Positions 35,401 to 45,170 of a stretch of 64,000 nucleotides of DNA are shown here, piece after piece. A model generated the notes under the pieces. It saw only the letters and a program-made list of their open reading frames with translations. It was not told where the DNA came from and ran no database searches. Position numbers and translations under genes: made by a program. The stretch's first letter is position 1; the number at the start of each line of letters is the position of its first letter. Source of the DNA: Desulfomonile tiedjei (GTDB taxonomy: Bacteria; Desulfobacterota; Desulfomonilia; Desulfomonilales; Desulfomonilaceae); contig JACRDG010000025.1 of the NCBI GenBank assembly GCA_016218715.1, forward strand, positions 1 through 64,000, read 5' to 3'.

Positions 35401-38400
35401 CTATTTTGTCTCCGCCTCACCCACCAGGATGAACGGAGCCCAAAAGAACGGGTGCTCGTAACCCTTGTTCCGGATTGTCGCCCGGGCTTCCCGCAGCGCT
35501 TCCAGATTTGTTTTGCGTTGCTGCAGGGACTTGAAGAAACTCTCCGCCAGTACTACGGACGCGTCGACGTGGACCGACCACAGACTTATCAGCACGGAAC
35601 CGGCCCCTCCGTATTGAAACGCTCTCCCCATACTCATGGTCCCCTCACCAGAGACGTTGCTGCCGAGACCGCTCTCGCACGCGATAAGTGTCACCAGATC
35701 GGGGTTCATCTTCAGTGACATGACCTCGCTCATTCCGAGCACTCCGTCGCTCTGCCGGCTTGGGTCCATATAGGTCAGAAAAATCACCGGCTCCGGAAAC
35801 CACCGCCCCTCTGCCAGCCCGTGCGTGCCGAAGACCAGAGACCAGTACACCGTCAGATCCCTGTCCACGAATGCCGACTTTGTCGCGTGTCCACCACGCC
35901 GGATCTCTGCACGATCGCCATAGGTCTGTTGCAATGACTCGCCAAGCTGCTCGGTCTCGTGGAGCGGGGGAAGCTTCAGCTCGGGCTCCGCGGCCATCAG
36001 TTCCACCACCTGTTTGGCCTTCTTTTCTGCCGCGAGCTTGTCTTTCTGTACGGGCGGTTTGCCCTCTGTCCTACGTTGGAGGAGGTCGCGGGGGAGAGCA
36101 CCGATTTTGTCCTTTTCTTCCGCTTTGACGGCTCTCTCCGCCCGGGGATCGCCCGGGAAGATCGGGTCCACCATGGCCAGGAGCCTTGCGCCGTGACCCT
36201 TATCCTTGGACCACCGGCGAGCCAGTGTGAGCGCGGTGCCGGACTGATAGTACGAAACGGGATTGCGATCGCCGAAGAACTTTACCTGGCCAGGGTCGAT
36301 GTACGGTATCTCCTTGTCCGTCTTGACCTTGCCGACGCCGCTTAACACCAGCGCCTCAAACGGAACTATGCCCAGTAAGTCGTCGGGCATGATAATGACC
36401 GGCTGGTTCTCCGACACCTCACCGAGAGCATCTACGAGGAGGAGGTCGCGTAGCGTCTCTGACGCCTTGAAATCGAAGGCTGCAAGCTTTTTCTTGAACT
36501 TGCCGAGGTCCGCATCTTCGCTCTCCATCTTCAATGGTTGGCGAAACGCCCGGATGAGACGGTAGAGTTTCGGTCGTTCAATGGGCTTGAACACCGCTTT
36601 TACGATATCTTTCCCGTGCGCGAGGTACACGAGGACGCCGTTGTCAGTGACCTTGTAGGCCAGCACCATCTCGTTCGAATTGAGTTCTGTCTTATCGATG
36701 GGTATTGGACGCGGAAATCGCACATCGTGGAATCTCGGGGCCTGCTGTTTGATCGTCTCCTGGAGCCGGCGGTATTCGGTTCTCAATTTATCTATCTTCT
36801 CGCGAAGTAAGGGAACACGCTGTTTGTCGCCTTCCTTCGCCTTGCAACGGTCCAATTCCTGGTGTGCGCTGGCGATCTGGTTTTCCAACACCACCAGGCG
36901 CTCCAACATATCCTTGTCAACGCCATAGGTTGCCGATCCGATCCGCCCGGCCAATTTCTCACCGAACGATCGAGCCTTGGCCTGCTCCGCGGCCTCCCAG
37001 GAAGCCGGAAATTTGCCGATCAGCAGGCGAACCCGCGCAAGTCCCTCATAAGGAAGGAGATGTTTGACGCCGAGCACCTCTTCTCCGTGAAGAAACGTGC
37101 GTCGAGCCTCGGGATCCAGGGTGTCCCGGATATCCTCGGAAGCGGTCACGGCTTGCTCGTAGGCCTTCTCAGCCTCGGCCAGTCTCTTCAACCGCTCGTT
37201 CGCCAGTCCCAAACCTACCAGAGCCAAGAAGCGATACTTGAGACTCCCCGACGTATCTGCCAGAGATTGGAGATCGGTGAACTTGACGATCGCCTGTTCC
37301 GGCTCCACGTCGAGCAGGTATCTCGCCCGAACGTACGTGAGGAGCATGAAGTCTTCTCGCTCTTCCGGTTTGACGATACCTTCCGCTTCTCTGATGAGCG
37401 CGTCGGCCTTCTTGAGATCTGCCGTTCGCTCTGTATCCTTCCGGTCGGAGCTGTCGTAGTATTTCGACTGTTCCAGATAGAACAGGGCAAACTTGCACAG
37501 AAGTTCGCCGAGCGGCACGCCGATCCTGCGCTTTACCTTGAGTGCTTCCTGATAATGTTTTTCCGCTTGCCGAATATCATCTGCATTCCCCGTGCGGGTG
37601 AGCAAGTTCGCCAAATCTCCGAGCGTATTGCTTTCGAAGAGGCTGTCTCCTATATCCCGTTGAATCTTGATGGCATGCTGATATTGCTTGCCCGCTTCGT
37701 CGAAGTTGCCGTAGTGCTCGTATAGATTCCCGAGCCTCAGGATCGCGGTTGCCTGCAACCTCCGGTCTCTAATCTCTTCGGCCAGTTCGATGGCCTGCTC
37801 GGAGGCCTTGAGCGCCTCGATGAAGCGCCCCTGCTCCTTCATTACCCACGCTTCGTCGTGCAGAGCCCATGCCTCGACCTCTTTCGCTCCCACCTCTTTC
37901 GCGATCTGCCGGGATTGCTCGAACAGCTTGAAGGCTTCCGTGTAGTCACCATAGGCAAGGTAGATCAGGCCGATGTTGTTGAGCTGATTGGCACGGAACC
38001 GTGGTATGCCGAGCCGTTCGCGTATTTCCAGCGCGGCCTTGTAGTGTTTGAGCGCGGCCGGATAGTTCCCCCTCTTCCAATTCACCGAGCCGAGGTTGTT
38101 GTACCCAAACGCCTGAGTGGCAGGATCGCCAACCTGCGTGGCTAGCTCGAGGGACCTGTTGTAGCGTTCCAGGGCTTCATTGTACTGGGCCCTCGACTCG
38201 TAGACGTGACCGATCACGGTGAGCAGCAAGGCCTGTCGTTTTCGATCTCCGACGCTCTCGTAAATCTTCAGTGCCTCATTCAAATCCGTGAGCGCCTGGT
38301 CGTATTTCTGTCTCTGGTGGTACATGAGCCCGCGGGTGTGCAGGAGGGCTCCCGTCTTTCTGGGCTCCTTCCCGCCCTTGAGGATCCGCTCGGCCTCGTT

Positions 38401-38931
38401 CAGGTCCTTCTCCGCCTTGTCATACTGGTAAAGACGGACCTTTGCTGCGGCCCGGTCCATCAAGACCCCGAAGAGTTCTTCGTCTTCCCTCCCGCGTTGC
38501 TGAGCGAGCACGGAGGCTGATTGATCGAAAGCTGACACCGCCTGCTCGTAAGCAGTCCTGGCAGCCAAGAGCTGCCCCTGCACGTGGAGGACCTTGGCCT
38601 TTTCCACAGGTCGGTTCAGTCTCGAAAAAAGATTCCCTGAGTCTTGGAGAAACCCGGTGGCCAGATCGAAGTCGGAGACCTCGAAGTGGCTCCTCCCGAG
38701 GTAGAATTTGGCAATCCCCTGACAAAATTCATCATCGCCGCATACGCGGAGCATCCTGGTGAAAACCCCGATCGCCTCACGGAATCGTGCCTGGTCCATG
38801 AGCCGCTGGCCTTCGCGGTTCAAATCTCGGACCTGCTCGTTGTCTGCAGCGAATACCGCCCCCCACCCGAACAGGGTTATGCCGAGAAATGCAAAGAGCC
38901 CTGCCATGATCGACAGTAAACGTTTTCCCAT
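35401..38931 (-). CDS. exported TPR-CHAT protease-like protein
   Basis: The 1176-residue protein has a signal peptide (about 1-29), at least twelve tetratricopeptide repeats (about 50-640), a helical linker and a C-terminal CHAT domain (about 800-1176) of the caspase superfamily. The dyad is intact: His1037 in FGTHGLAEG and Cys1085 in IACESGLGS, with the trailing SLWSVHVDAS segment typical of CHAT. The ATG at 38931 matches the signal peptide; longer in-frame starts add an unlikely leader. Cytoplasmic TPR-CHAT proteins serve as CRISPR-linked or stress proteases, but this one is predicted to act outside the cytoplasm. Convergent with the caspase-like gene. Confidence 0.93.
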   Translation of the reverse strand: MGKRLLSIMAGLFAFLGITLFGWGAVFAADNEQVRDLNREGQRLMDQARFREAIGVFTRMLRVCGDDEFCQGIAKFYLGRSHFEVSDFDLATGFLQDSGNLFSRLNRPVEKAKVLHVQGQLLAARTAYEQAVSAFDQSASVLAQQRGREDEELFGVLMDRAAAKVRLYQYDKAEKDLNEAERILKGGKEPRKTGALLHTRGLMYHQRQKYDQALTDLNEALKIYESVGDRKRQALLLTVIGHVYESRAQYNEALERYNRSLELATQVGDPATQAFGYNNLGSVNWKRGNYPAALKHYKAALEIRERLGIPRFRANQLNNIGLIYLAYGDYTEAFKLFEQSRQIAKEVGAKEVEAWALHDEAWVMKEQGRFIEALKASEQAIELAEEIRDRRLQATAILRLGNLYEHYGNFDEAGKQYQHAIKIQRDIGDSLFESNTLGDLANLLTRTGNADDIRQAEKHYQEALKVKRRIGVPLGELLCKFALFYLEQSKYYDSSDRKDTERTADLKKADALIREAEGIVKPEEREDFMLLTYVRARYLLDVEPEQAIVKFTDLQSLADTSGSLKYRFLALVGLGLANERLKRLAEAEKAYEQAVTASEDIRDTLDPEARRTFLHGEEVLGVKHLLPYEGLARVRLLIGKFPASWEAAEQAKARSFGEKLAGRIGSATYGVDKDMLERLVVLENQIASAHQELDRCKAKEGDKQRVPLLREKIDKLRTEYRRLQETIKQQAPRFHDVRFPRPIPIDKTELNSNEMVLAYKVTDNGVLVYLAHGKDIVKAVFKPIERPKLYRLIRAFRQPLKMESEDADLGKFKKKLAAFDFKASETLRDLLLVDALGEVSENQPVIIMPDDLLGIVPFEALVLSGVGKVKTDKEIPYIDPGQVKFFGDRNPVSYYQSGTALTLARRWSKDKGHGARLLAMVDPIFPGDPRAERAVKAEEKDKIGALPRDLLQRRTEGKPPVQKDKLAAEKKAKQVVELMAAEPELKLPPLHETEQLGESLQQTYGDRAEIRRGGHATKSAFVDRDLTVYWSLVFGTHGLAEGRWFPEPVIFLTYMDPSRQSDGVLGMSEVMSLKMNPDLVTLIACESGLGSNVSGEGTMSMGRAFQYGGAGSVLISLWSVHVDASVVLAESFFKSLQQRKTNLEALREARATIRNKGYEHPFFWAPFILVGEAETK

Positions 38932-39708
38932 AGCTGATCCCCTCCCTGTATCGCTCGGCTTGGACGTTGAGCCCCGCCAGCCTAGCCCGCCGCGGAATCC
39001 GCTGGTTAGCACGGGCAAGCTCGATGAATTCCGCTGTGTCGAATACCCGGATGTAGACTCTCCTCACCGTACTATATAGCACGAAGGGGCCGAGGGACAA
39101 GGTACAAAAGACCCAGAGCTTGTAACCGGAAGCAGGCGAATAGACCACGCGGCGTACCGGATATTTCAGGCCACCGTCTCTTGCCACGGGATGTGGCTTT
39201 CAATCCGCTTCATTCAACGTCAGGAGTTTGGGGAATTTGGAAGCACGCAGCATAATCGACGCGTCGCGCTGAATGCCGCTCTGAAGACATAATCGACGTC
39301 GGTCATCAAACGGGTCGTTGTCATCAGTCCGGTACCGCGGTCCTCGGGACAGTCCCACGGGGGCTTTGCGGCGAGGGGTGGGAACGGAGATCTTGTGGAA
39401 GATTCCGGGCTTCCTGACGCGTGCTTGCGCGCCGAGTCAGGAAAAAAAAATCGTTCGGGATGCCCGTTCTCATGGTGCGGGCATCTGGTAAAACATGGCT
39501 GGGGCTTGGCAGCTGCTTGTGTCGGTCACATGCTGACAATTTATGTGACAAGGTTAAGTAATGAAAACAATATGATACGGTTATTTGATTAACAGTATTT
39601 TTGAAAACATACTGTGTTGTAATAGATATTAGTTATAACATACGGATTATTGGTAAATAACTAGCATACTATGGAAAAACACGGCGGAATGGGGCCGCAT
39701 TTTCTTGC
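38932..39708. other. intergenic region with AT-rich patch
   Basis: No gene is supported. Two short direct repeats, CATAATCGACG, lie at about 39252 and 39290. From about 39530 to 39665 the sequence is strikingly AT-rich compared with its surroundings, just before the promoter at 39709. Confidence 0.5.
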
Positions 39709-39738: not shown

Positions 39739-39805
39739 CATAGTCACCGACGTACAATCTTTTGTTTTTAATGTGCCTGTGCAATAAAGTTTGGGAGGTA
39801 ATGTT

Positions 39806-40801
39806 ATGCGCGGGAGTCGAGATATCTTGCGATTGTCCATAGTGGCGATCTGCGTGCTGATTTTTGCCGCGGCCGGCTGGTGCGGTGGACCGCCTGCGGG
39901 GCCTTCTGCAGCGTTGAGTGCAGCAGGAGCACCCGGTGAAGGGGCGGCGGACCAGGGCTCGGTAGGTCAGTCCTATAGCGGATCCCAGCAACCTGCTGGA
40001 GCTGCCGACCAAGGCGGCGTCAGCGTAGGCCCCAATTACGGTGGAAGCAGCGGTGCGGACGGCGGCAATGGTCGTAGCCCGGGTTTCGATCTGAAATCGA
40101 TCGGAATAACCTCGGGAATTACCAAGGGAGATAGGTTGAAGTACGACCCTATGTCCCTCGGAGATATGAACTTCACGTTCCTTTGGGACTACAACGTAAC
40201 GGAATTCTTCGGTTCCGGGAACTACAGTGGACCGGCGGGTCCCTTTAACGCCAACGATTCTCTCAGTTCGACCTACACACTCACGATGAATGCGCTGAGT
40301 CTCGATATCGACACAGCGAAGCTCATCGGGGGGGGGTCGTGGATCGTCGGTGGTCCCCGGCTGCAGTTCACCAACTTCTCGGACCTGCTTGTCGTGGATG
40401 ACACCACCGCTCCGGCTTTGAGCAAGAGTGCCGGCAAGAGCTTCTCGATGTTCGGGTTCGGCTTCTGGGGCACCCTGGACTTGGCTCACATGACCGGGCT
40501 GAGTTACAATGGTGAGATGGCTGTGTTCAAACCGCGCCTCAACGCTGCGGTGGTCTACGGCACGGGCAGTGGGATGAACTACTGGGAATGGGAGGCCTTC
40601 CTGCAGGTAGCCAAGACCGCGAGCAGCCTCTACACCAGCAACTCGGTAGGCATCGGGCCGCTGGCCGTGGAGATTGGATACTCCAGGTACTACTTCAACG
40701 AGAAGATTCAGCAAATCTCCGGCGCGGGTCAGGCAGAGGGGAACGTCCGCATGGTGGTTGGAATCCCGGTTATCCGGGTGAATGTTCCCATAGTGTTTTA
40801 A
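39806..40801 (+). CDS. exported beta-barrel-like protein, first of tandem paralogues
   Basis: The 331-residue protein has a signal peptide ending near AAAGWCGGP (about 30), then a Gly/Ala/Ser-rich low-complexity segment (about 35-90) and a beta-rich domain with many alternating aromatic and polar strands, ending in a typical strand-like tail (IRVNVPIVF). The ATG at 39806 follows GGGAGGT. The domain shares FGFWGTLDLA, GGPRLQ and MNYWEWE with the next gene. Likely an outer-membrane barrel or surface protein. It has its own promoter and a terminator behind it. Function unknown. Confidence 0.75.
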   Translation: MRGSRDILRLSIVAICVLIFAAAGWCGGPPAGPSAALSAAGAPGEGAADQGSVGQSYSGSQQPAGAADQGGVSVGPNYGGSSGADGGNGRSPGFDLKSIGITSGITKGDRLKYDPMSLGDMNFTFLWDYNVTEFFGSGNYSGPAGPFNANDSLSSTYTLTMNALSLDIDTAKLIGGGSWIVGGPRLQFTNFSDLLVVDDTTAPALSKSAGKSFSMFGFGFWGTLDLAHMTGLSYNGEMAVFKPRLNAAVVYGTGSGMNYWEWEAFLQVAKTASSLYTSNSVGIGPLAVEIGYSRYYFNEKIQQISGAGQAEGNVRMVVGIPVIRVNVPIVF

Positions 40802-41135: not shown

Positions 41136-41164
41136 TTGACAGGTTGTTCCAGGCTCTCTATCAT
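41136..41164 (+). promoter_or_regulatory. sigma-70 promoter of second beta-barrel-like gene
   Basis: TTGACA (41136-41141), 17-bp spacer and TATCAT (41159-41164). The -35 region copies that of the first paralogue, so the promoter seems to have been duplicated with the gene. Confidence 0.75.
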
Positions 41165-41234
41165 GCTAAAATTGTTTGTGGAAGCTCGTCAGATTGATGT
41201 TCATGTGCAATTGGAAGTGCGGGAGGGTATTGGT

Positions 41235-42131
41235 ATGGGACGGAATCGCCACGTGGCGCACGTGTTTTTGGCGGCTGCCTTTGCGCTGGTGTTCGCCTCC
41301 GCAGGATGGTGCGGGGGGCCGTTTGGACTCACAGGGTCCGAATGTGACGGCCAAGGCGGCTTGACTGCGGGAGGCGGTCTAGGTAGGGGGACCACGTTTG
41401 AGGGGGCCTCTAGCCGGACCCCGGGGTCGAACTTGAGTTTCCTTGGGCTGCACACTGGGTTTACCAACTATGGTTGGATGAAGCTCAACCCTACCGACTT
41501 CGGTAGCGTGAGCCTGGGCGTTACGTGGGACTATTTCTACTCCATGGGCCACGGTTCCAGTTATTACGCGGGGCCGCTGCATCCGATTATTGGCCAGGGA
41601 GACACCGTCGATGCCCAGTTTTTCGTCTTGCTCAACACCGTGAGCCTCGACGTCGGCCTCGCATCGCTGATCGGTGGTGGAAGCCGGATCAAAGGGGGAC
41701 CGAGGGTCCAATTGGCTATTTATAGCGATACGCTCATGATCAGTGATGCGGACGTCGGTCGGGATATCGACGCATCCGCGGGTTACACCATGTTTGGACT
41801 CGGGTTCTGGGGATCGCTCGACCTGGCTTCCGTGACCGGGCTGGACTGGGTCGGCCGGCATGCGGCCATCAAGCCCCGTCTGATAGGCGCTGCCGCCGCC
41901 GGCGGAGGCGGCCAGATGAACTACTGGGAGTGGGAGCTGTTCTTACGCGTGTTGAGCGCAGGGAGCCCCGTGTCAGTGATTGGGTCGGTCACCCTTGGGC
42001 AGGTGGATGTAGAGATCGGGTACGCCAAGTACACCTTTGTCGAGCACGCGGAGGGTACCAACGCAGACGCCACCACCCGCCTCGCAATAGGGATGCCGTT
42101 GATTCGCGCATCGGTGCCCATTTCTTTCTGA
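41235..42131 (+). CDS. exported beta-barrel-like protein, second of tandem paralogues
   Basis: The 298-residue protein has a signal peptide ending in SAGWCGGPFG, a shorter Gly-rich segment, and the same beta-rich domain as its neighbour: FGLGFWGSLDLASVTG, GGPRVQ and MNYWEWELF. Its tail (LIRASVPISF) also looks like a terminal outer-membrane strand. The ATG at 41235 has GGGAGGG before it; an upstream frame extends to 41136 but covers the promoter. The shorter linker is the main difference from the first copy. Function unknown; the two may be alternative surface proteins. Confidence 0.75.
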   Translation: MGRNRHVAHVFLAAAFALVFASAGWCGGPFGLTGSECDGQGGLTAGGGLGRGTTFEGASSRTPGSNLSFLGLHTGFTNYGWMKLNPTDFGSVSLGVTWDYFYSMGHGSSYYAGPLHPIIGQGDTVDAQFFVLLNTVSLDVGLASLIGGGSRIKGGPRVQLAIYSDTLMISDADVGRDIDASAGYTMFGLGFWGSLDLASVTGLDWVGRHAAIKPRLIGAAAAGGGGQMNYWEWELFLRVLSAGSPVSVIGSVTLGQVDVEIGYAKYTFVEHAEGTNADATTRLAIGMPLIRASVPISF

Positions 42132-42245: not shown

Positions 42246-42276
42246 CCCCTCTCCGAAAAGGAGAGGGGCTTTTTTT
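42246..42276 (+). terminator. rho-independent terminator
   Basis: The stem CCCCTCTCC/GGAGAGGGG with a GAAAA loop is followed by CTTTTTTT. It is a strong terminator for the second barrel gene. Confidence 0.92.
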
Positions 42277-42360
42277 CGTCCGCAGGCACTCGGCCGTACT
42301 GCCCCGTGCGGCATGACCCGGTCCCGGCAAACTCCGCAGAAACGAGAGGTGAACGCCGAA

Positions 42361-42957
42361 ATGCACATCCGCATCTTTTCCGACTTTGTTTGACCGTACT
42401 GCTACATCGGCAAGGGACTTGTCGAGAAATTGAAACAGGAATTCCCGATTGAAGACGATTGGGTAAGCTTTGAACTGCGGCCGGAGACCCCACAGGAAGG
42501 AGTCCTCTTGGCCAGTCGGTTTCCCGAGGCCGAACTGAAACGAATCTACGAGAACCTCCGGCGAGCCGGAACACCGCTCGGGATTGTGTTCGGAGAGGTG
42601 TCCGTCACCCCCAATTCGCATCTCGCTCTGGAAGCCGGCGAGTACGCCCGGGATCACGGACACTTCGCGTCGTTCCACGAACGGACTTTCCGCGCCTACT
42701 TCACCGAGGGCAGGGACATTGGCAGGCTCGATGTGGTGCTGGACCTCGCACGGGAGGACGGCCTTGACCGGGGAGATCTCGCCGAGGCCCTCAGAGGCCG
42801 GCGTTTCGCCCAACGGCTCGCGGAGGCGCGGCGAGAAGGGGAGGGGCTGGGAGTGAGGGCTGTCCCTACGTTCATAATCGACGCGAAACACATAATCGTC
42901 GGCGTTCAGCCCCTGGAAGCGATGGGAGATCGCCTCAGGCAGATTACGTCCCCATAA
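42361..42957 (+). CDS. selenocysteine-containing DsbA/FrnE-like thiol oxidoreductase
   Basis: Reading through the in-frame TGA at 42391-42393 gives a 198-residue thioredoxin-fold protein starting MHIRIFSDFV, then U-P-Y-C at residues 11-14. Family members (FrnE/2-hydroxychromene-isomerase-like DsbA) have C-P-W/Y-C at this place, so the TGA falls exactly on the first active-site Cys. The rest fits the family: helical insertion, EAGEYARDHG, and VPTFI with the cis-Pro (P169). GAGAGGTG precedes the ATG. A SECIS-like hairpin begins 14 bases after the TGA, its loop 21 bases after. No signal peptide, so a cytoplasmic disulfide or redox role is likely. Gene callers will usually report only a shortened version starting near 42430. 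Confidence 0.85.
42407..42425 (+). promoter_or_regulatory. bacterial SECIS-like hairpin
   Basis: Stem TCGGCAAG pairs with CTTGTCGA (one G-U pair) around a three-base GGA loop at 42415-42417. The loop begins 21 bases after the UGA, within the 16-37 range known for bacterial SECIS elements, and has the required G in the first loop positions. It is predicted to recruit SelB with Sec-tRNA. Confidence 0.75.
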
Positions 42958-43122: not shown

Positions 43123-43644
43123 TTACAAGGCGAGTTCCCGTAACCTCCTCCCGGCGTCCACATTCCCTCTTTCCGCTGCCCACCGGTACCATTTTACGGC
43201 CTCAGACTCGTCCCGCTCGACGCCCAACCCTTTCTCGTACATGATGCCAAGATTGAGTTGTGCCTCGGCCAAGCCCCTCACCGCGGCTTTCCGATACCAT
43301 TTCACCGCTTCCTGATAGCTCTGTGCGATGCCCTGGCCCTTCTCGTACATGTATCCAAGGTTGACCTGTGCTCGCTCGTCTCCTTGTTCCGCGGCCATCC
43401 GGTACCATCGTGCTGCCTCAACATAATCGGAGCGGACACCTTTTCCCGATTTGTACATAAGCCCCAGGTTGAACTGTGCACGAGGGTGGCCCTGTTCTGC
43501 AGCCAGGCGGCACCATTTGACCGCTTCCGTCTTGTCCTGGGGTACCCCGAGTCCCTTTGCGTAAGCAACGGCCAGATGGAATTGGGCCTCGGCGTCTCCC
43601 TGTTCCGCGAGGGTTCGCTGTTGAGGAGTGTACATTCCTTCCAT
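43123..43644 (-). CDS. Sel1-repeat protein
   Basis: The 173-residue protein is made almost wholly of Sel1-like repeats of 36 residues (four full copies, about 15-160) with the pattern A-x-x-x-L-G-x-M-Y-x-x-G-x-G-V and A-x-x-W-Y-R-x-A-A. No signal peptide or membrane helix is visible. Such solenoids mediate protein interactions, often in stress or surface signalling. It is a single gene with no obvious operon partner. Confidence 0.85.
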   Translation of the reverse strand: MEGMYTPQQRTLAEQGDAEAQFHLAVAYAKGLGVPQDKTEAVKWCRLAAEQGHPRAQFNLGLMYKSGKGVRSDYVEAARWYRMAAEQGDERAQVNLGYMYEKGQGIAQSYQEAVKWYRKAAVRGLAEAQLNLGIMYEKGLGVERDESEAVKWYRWAAERGNVDAGRRLRELAL

Positions 43645-44513: not shown

Positions 44514-45170
44514 ATGCCTGAACGGCAGTACCTCATCGACGACTTCAGTGTTCAGGAGAGTTGGCGTATCTTTCGGATTATATCCGAATTCGTCGACGGC
44601 ATTGAGTCTCTCTCCGTGGTTCACCCCGGGGTGGCGGTTTTCGGCTCGTCCCGAACCCGAGAACCCGATCCACTGTACGATGTGGGACGTCAAGTCGGCC
44701 GACTGCTCGCCGAGAACGGCTTCTCCGCTATCACGGGAGGCGGGCCCGGAGCGATGGAAGCGGTCAATCGCGGAGCGGCCGAGGCCAACGGGAAATCGGT
44801 GGGGCTGTGCATCCAACTCCCGAAGGAACAGGCCGCGAACCCCTACGCCAACATCAAAGTATATTTCCGCTACTTTTTCCTGAGGAAGGTCATGTTCGTC
44901 AAACACTCGGTGGCGTACATCATCCTTCCCGGTGGGTTTGGCACGCTCGACGAACTATTCGAGGCGCTCACCCTGATCCAAACCCACCGTATACGCCCAT
45001 TTCCGGTCGTCATGCTCGGGAAAGATTACTGGAAGGACCTGGTCTCCTGGATCAAGAAGACCATGTTGAGCAAACATGGCATGATCGAACCCGACGACCT
45101 TGACCTGTTCAAGGTGACCGACGATCCCGCGGAAGCGGTCGCGGCAATCAAGAGGATCGTAGTCCTGTAA
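44514..45170 (+). CDS. LOG family protein (TIGR00730-type Rossmann fold)
   Basis: The 218-residue protein carries both signatures of the LOG/lysine-decarboxylase-like family: GGGPGAMEA (75-83) and PGGFGTLDE (139-147). Characterised members are cytokinin-activating phosphoribohydrolases or general nucleoside 5'-monophosphate nucleosidases (PpnN-like). FGSSRTREPDPLY near the N-terminus is also typical. AGAGGA lies before the ATG. In a non-plant-associated bacterium a nucleotide-hydrolysing role is likely. It stands alone. Confidence 0.9.
   Translation: MPERQYLIDDFSVQESWRIFRIISEFVDGIESLSVVHPGVAVFGSSRTREPDPLYDVGRQVGRLLAENGFSAITGGGPGAMEAVNRGAAEANGKSVGLCIQLPKEQAANPYANIKVYFRYFFLRKVMFVKHSVAYIILPGGFGTLDELFEALTLIQTHRIRPFPVVMLGKDYWKDLVSWIKKTMLSKHGMIEPDDLDLFKVTDDPAEAVAAIKRIVVL

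Follow-up and report, generated by a model that had tools for sequence, protein, structure and literature searches.

Sec-containing DsbA-like proteins with a UxxC motif have been known since 2005, when they were found in Sargasso Sea data and assigned to COG2761 (PMC1088965). In 2006, DsbA-like selenoproteins were reported from the genomes of bacteria, several Deltaproteobacteria among them, in a study that also described a general trend of conversion from Cys to Sec (PMC1794560). The 2008 table of the GOS selenoproteins lists the family DsbA 1 with 63 and 704, which we read as the Sec and Cys forms, respectively (PMC2398784). The numbers given in 2016, in a survey that covered over 5,200 organisms, are 41 and 45, read here as organisms and proteins (PMC5029168).

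The gene analyzed in this study lies within a stretch of 64,000 nucleotides of a Desulfomonile tiedjei contig, hereafter the window, to which all coordinates refer unless a contig is named. It shares with the described DsbA-like UxxC selenoproteins (COG2761/PF01323; PMC1088965, 'DsbA 1' in PMC2398784 and 'DsbA-like form 1' in PMC13188914) the Pfam family, a UxxC motif with Sec in first position and a bacterial SECIS element (bSECIS) directly downstream, and it differs from them in the lineage of the host. The likeness to these published proteins, of which NIP15863.1 is an example, is one of family, motif and SECIS. That the window gene joins a kind of selenoprotein described since 2005 is thus well supported; the kind itself is not new, and the novelty implied in an earlier note on this DNA was too high.

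Among related proteins outside this kind, D. radiodurans FrnE (PDB 5CNW, 5CP1; PMC8945050) has CPWC where the window protein has UPYC, and both are cytoplasmic. FrnE carries Cys instead of Sec and has in addition a C-terminal CX4C motif (239-244), which the window protein lacks. This motif is not obligatory, since it occurs in many but not all FrnE proteins and is also missing from those of D. maricopensis and S. roseofulvus (PMC8945050). SCO1869 of Streptomyces coelicolor (PDB 3GL5), a putative DsbA oxidoreductase that is not reported as a selenoprotein, has the same fold as the window protein (TM 0.91) and a weaker sequence match (3.7e-11). The DsbA-type fold is common also to 2-hydroxychromene-2-carboxylate (HCCA) isomerase and GST kappa, with lower structural scores. 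These two enzymes perform a different chemistry and have no CXXC pair.

A FrnE-like gene with an in-frame TGA

The gene occupies positions 42361-42957 of the forward strand, from the ATG at 42361 to the TAA at 42955-42957, and the only stop codon inside this frame is the TGA at 42391-42393. When the TGA is translated as U, the product is a protein of 198 amino acids (MHIRIFSDFV-U-PYC-YIGKGL...) with Sec as residue 11, in the first position of a U-P-Y-C active site. The resolving Cys14 (TGC, 42400-42402, +) is invariant in the alignment, and U11 and C14 are the only Cys or Sec residues of the window protein. By eye, a Shine-Dalgarno-like GAGGTG can be read at 42346-42351 (+), nine nucleotides 5' of the ATG. 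Further upstream, a hairpin resembling an intrinsic terminator (42246-42275, +), with a stem of 9 bp and a run of T behind it, lies 3' of the preceding gene and suggests that the selenoprotein gene forms a transcription unit of its own.

With translation table 11, the first open reading frame downstream of the TGA begins at TTG 42430, and the active site is lost from the 175 amino acids that it encodes. Automatic annotation cuts the gene behind its active site, and as a consequence this enzyme and dozens of its relatives would be missed or taken as inactive fragments. The earlier note had proposed both a TGA where a CPYC motif has its first Cys and an annotated frame that would begin near 42430 without the active site. 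The former proved exact to the base, in a frame that is otherwise open, and the latter is what table 11 returns.

The Sec-containing protein matches the Pfam family DSBA (PF01323) at 2e-27, with 96.7 bits against a gathering cut-off of 25.6. D. radiodurans FrnE is the best match in a sequence search of the PDB (5e-22), and Foldseek aligns it with the AlphaFold model of the window protein (pLDDT 97.3) at about 6e-16 and with a TM score of 0.87-0.90. FrnE is therefore the nearest of the solved structures by sequence and by fold, and the assignment of the protein to a FrnE-like subfamily, already made from the letters alone, was right. In the model, the protein adopts the fold of the DsbA superfamily, a thioredoxin fold with a helical insertion, here composed of a beta-alpha-beta unit, a helical block and a beta-beta-alpha unit. 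U11-P-Y-C14 opens the helix formed by residues 12-24, and Pro169 (42865-42867, +; V-P-T), which is invariant in 46 sequences, occupies the position expected for the thioredoxin-fold cis-Pro that adjoins the active site. From what is known of the family, we take the geometry of Pro169 to be cis. Since residues 2-7 already form the first core strand, the protein should have no signal peptide and reside in the cytoplasm.

We collected homologues from relatives, from the phylum at large by means of a profile search (395 genomes) and from one alphaproteobacterial MAG. The full-length gene is present in seven other genomes among the relatives, six of which belong to the same family as the window genome, and each copy has a single TGA at the identical codon. 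In the phylum, the profile search returned matches in 88 of the 395 genomes. A contig scan with the window protein returned a single distant Cys homologue, in the alphaproteobacterial MAG. After exclusion of split and partial matches (G174, G382 and the second match in G265), 74 loci have TGA and 17 have TGC or TGT, always in the first position of xPxC. Sec or Cys is thus what the alignment of homologues places at this codon, and the in-frame UGA is conserved and aligned with Cys, as in bacterial selenoproteins. In the phylum survey alone, Sec forms outnumber Cys forms by 69 to 16 (69 of 85 loci), compared with 63 and 704 for DsbA 1 in the GOS data. This predominance of Sec over Cys is the less expected part of our observations.

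The hairpin downstream of the TGA

The TGA is followed by a hairpin at 42407-42425 (+), in which eight pairs (42407-42414 with 42418-42425) enclose the apical loop GGA (42415-42417). Published constraints on bSECIS elements are a loop of 3-9 nt with G in the first two positions, a stem of 4-16 bp, a distance of 16-37 nt from the UGA and a minimum free energy of -7.5 or lower (PMC13188914). With its 8 bp, its GGA loop, a distance of 21 nt from UGA to loop and -8.8 kcal/mol, the hairpin of the window gene satisfies all of them, and it lies where it had been predicted from the sequence.

The same rule is satisfied by 12.6% of the sampled TGA triplets and by 13.7% of the random positions in the window. 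With about 13% of positions passing by either measure, comparative evidence is needed. Folding of the single sequence gave z-scores of -0.9 to -1.1 relative to dinucleotide shuffles of 40- and 50-nt stretches, which is not significant, and an Rfam cmscan of positions 42300-42600 returned no match.

We aligned 66 TGA sequences without gaps, numbering the UGA as positions 1-3. A 7-bp helix between positions 17-23 and 29-35 is paired in 95.2% of the cells of this alignment, a figure favoured by the omission of eight TGA sequences that have another register by eye or belong to distant clades; slid registers reach 22.6-50.5%. Six of the seven pairs change on both sides, and the double-change cells are 86, as opposed to 27.4 in shuffles. 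When all TGA genes are considered, the mean number of pairs is 6.39 out of 7 in the 74 TGA genes and 3.47 in the 17 Cys genes. Six or seven pairs form in 67 of the 74 TGA loci, 32 of which pass the strict energy rule. For three loci with low pairing scores (L076, L105 and L110), a hairpin in a neighbouring register appears possible by eye.

Because the region is coding, we used synonymous recoding as a control for the stability of the hairpin. In TGA genes, the natural hairpins exceed the recoded ones in stability (mean z-score -1.55), whereas those of Cys genes do not (mean +0.25). The z-score reaches -3.1 in the window gene, where only 1.3% of the recodings are as stable. Beyond chance is the retention of a TGA at one codon by 74 loci, together with a helix that covaries in a fixed position. 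The SECIS assignment is therefore upheld in two ways, through the published constraints and through compensatory covariation.

Selenocysteine machinery and the reading of the UGA

The window genome encodes selA (3e-177), selB (1.1e-114) and selD (1.5e-110), as well as one tRNA-Sec with the anticodon TCA (UCA in the tRNA). The set of genes named in the earlier note as a check, from selA to selD, is thus present in the same genome. Codon 17 of the selD gene (L018:1483-2532, contig C85) is likewise an in-frame TGA (AGUASK); the product is a second selenoprotein of this genome and would also be truncated by annotation.

Given that selA is present in 355 of the 395 genomes of the phylum, its co-occurrence with the TGA gene is only mildly informative. 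A selA this widespread may point to a lineage rich in selenoproteins, of the kind formerly placed in the Deltaproteobacteria. According to a comparison of the two lists by hand, 68 of the 69 TGA genomes of the survey have selA. The exception is G233 (locus L092), a 240-contig assembly in which the TGA form has an intact hairpin and neither selA nor tRNA-Sec was found; a missing piece of the assembly, or a relic gene after recent loss of the Sec machinery, would explain it. Among the 16 genomes with the Cys form, three (G074, G255 and G296) yielded neither selA nor tRNA-Sec, and the best match to the tRNA-Sec model in each was a tRNA-Ser. This model also matches tRNA-Ser, and the anticodons assigned by ARAGORN were decisive.

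Homologues, Sec machinery and covarying hairpin all favour the reading of UGA 42391-42393 as selenocysteine, which belongs to the active site of a redox enzyme of the FrnE/DsbA type, and we infer with very high confidence that Sec is inserted there in the cell. If the TGA were instead a real stop, the locus would be a pseudogene or would produce a truncated protein from TTG 42430 without active site, and gene finders would indeed choose 42430-42957. However, the ten residues encoded 5' of the TGA show conservation at the protein level and are preceded by the Shine-Dalgarno-like site, while 74 diverged loci keep the TGA at one codon with intact flanks and Cys homologues swap exactly this codon. 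The covarying hairpin is also retained, unlike in a pseudogene, and a genuine stop is in our view extremely improbable. Single-base errors between TGA and TGC do occur, and the window genome is an assembly of 124 contigs, so that the codon could in principle be TGC or TGT. Seven relatives, one of them represented by the near-closed two-contig assembly G005, have the same TGA, however, as do 66 further loci from the phylum. A sequencing error is excluded by this retention of the TGA in dozens of genomes that are independent of each other, and the probability that we assign to a sequencing or assembly error is negligible.

A further possibility is that the UGA is recoded as Trp or Cys, through near-cognate readthrough or a suppressor, and that the hairpin is incidental. 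The genome, however, has the whole Sec pathway with a tRNA-Sec of UCA anticodon, Cys is the only residue that takes the place of Sec in xPxC homologues, and the hairpin falls within the bSECIS constraints and covaries. We therefore deem insertion of another residue very improbable. The remaining alternative accepts Sec and concerns the enzyme, which could be peroxidase-like or similar to GST kappa or HCCA isomerase rather than a disulfide reductase or isomerase. Enzymes of the latter two types have the same fold and were among the results of the structure search (2imd, 3fz5 and 1yzx). They ranked well below FrnE, however, and the window protein retains the two redox positions of a CXXC oxidoreductase as U11 and C14, which makes a different enzymatic activity unlikely.

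In the reading that we favour, the gene product is a FrnE-like thiol-disulfide oxidoreductase that belongs to the DsbA family and acts in the cytoplasm. SelB in complex with Sec-tRNA-Sec would bind the hairpin directly 3' of the UGA and decode it as Sec. If the reaction resembles that of FrnE and other UxxC oxidoreductases, Sec11 would provide the attacking nucleophile, a selenolate, which would either react with a substrate disulfide to give a mixed selenosulfide or be oxidised by a peroxide. Cys14 would then resolve this intermediate to give a Sec11-Cys14 selenenylsulfide, to be reduced by a cytoplasmic thiol donor. Since the protein is cytoplasmic, disulfide reduction or repair is more likely than oxidation. 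We found no gene neighbour conserved in most relatives and therefore propose no partner.

Several other genes of the window surround this locus. Two tandem proteins (39791-40801 and 41136-42131) have N-termini resembling signal peptides, contain AGWCGGP and have no Pfam match; they look like paralogues of an exported, possibly outer-membrane, family. On the reverse strand, 35401-39018 encodes a protein of about 1,200 amino acids that has TPR repeats and ends in a CHAT domain, possibly a caspase-like peptidase. Near the selenoprotein gene are also a SLOG protein that resembles LOG/lysine decarboxylases (44514-45170, +) and a Sel1-repeat protein (43123-43644, -), whose name has nothing to do with selenium.

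Sec and Cys forms during evolution

The tree of the 91 sequences, whose root is not established, requires six changes between Sec and Cys. One Cys form (L041), from a genome in which selA was not detected, is nested among Sec forms in their clade, and two others (L089 and L099) form a fully supported clade with the Sec form L073. L039 and L041 keep five of the seven SECIS pairs and the GG in the loop, as expected if Sec had been lost to Cys. L089, L111 and L113 likewise keep five of seven pairs, and the signal is suggestive only. Because the root is not established, the polarity of these changes is one that we infer. We give about even chances to a history in which Sec has been the long-term state of a Sec-predominant FrnE clade in this phylum and Cys a derived state that arose repeatedly. 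If true, the direction from Sec to Cys in this clade would oppose the published trend from Cys to Sec.

The 74 Sec and 17 Cys versions, with their well-resolved SECIS, offer a natural comparison of the contribution of Sec to a cytoplasmic disulfide oxidoreductase. They also allow the study of the Sec/Cys exchange that follows the loss of the Sec machinery.

Besides these loci, the phylum has five distant paralogues without the xPxC motif (L115, L116, L119, L120 and L121). These have S-P-Y-G or A-S-x-L-C in its place and are possibly related to HCCA isomerase-like enzymes. A separate distant clade (L114, L117, L118 and L122) is composed of U-P-W-C proteins with TGA, possibly another subfamily of DsbA-type selenoproteins.
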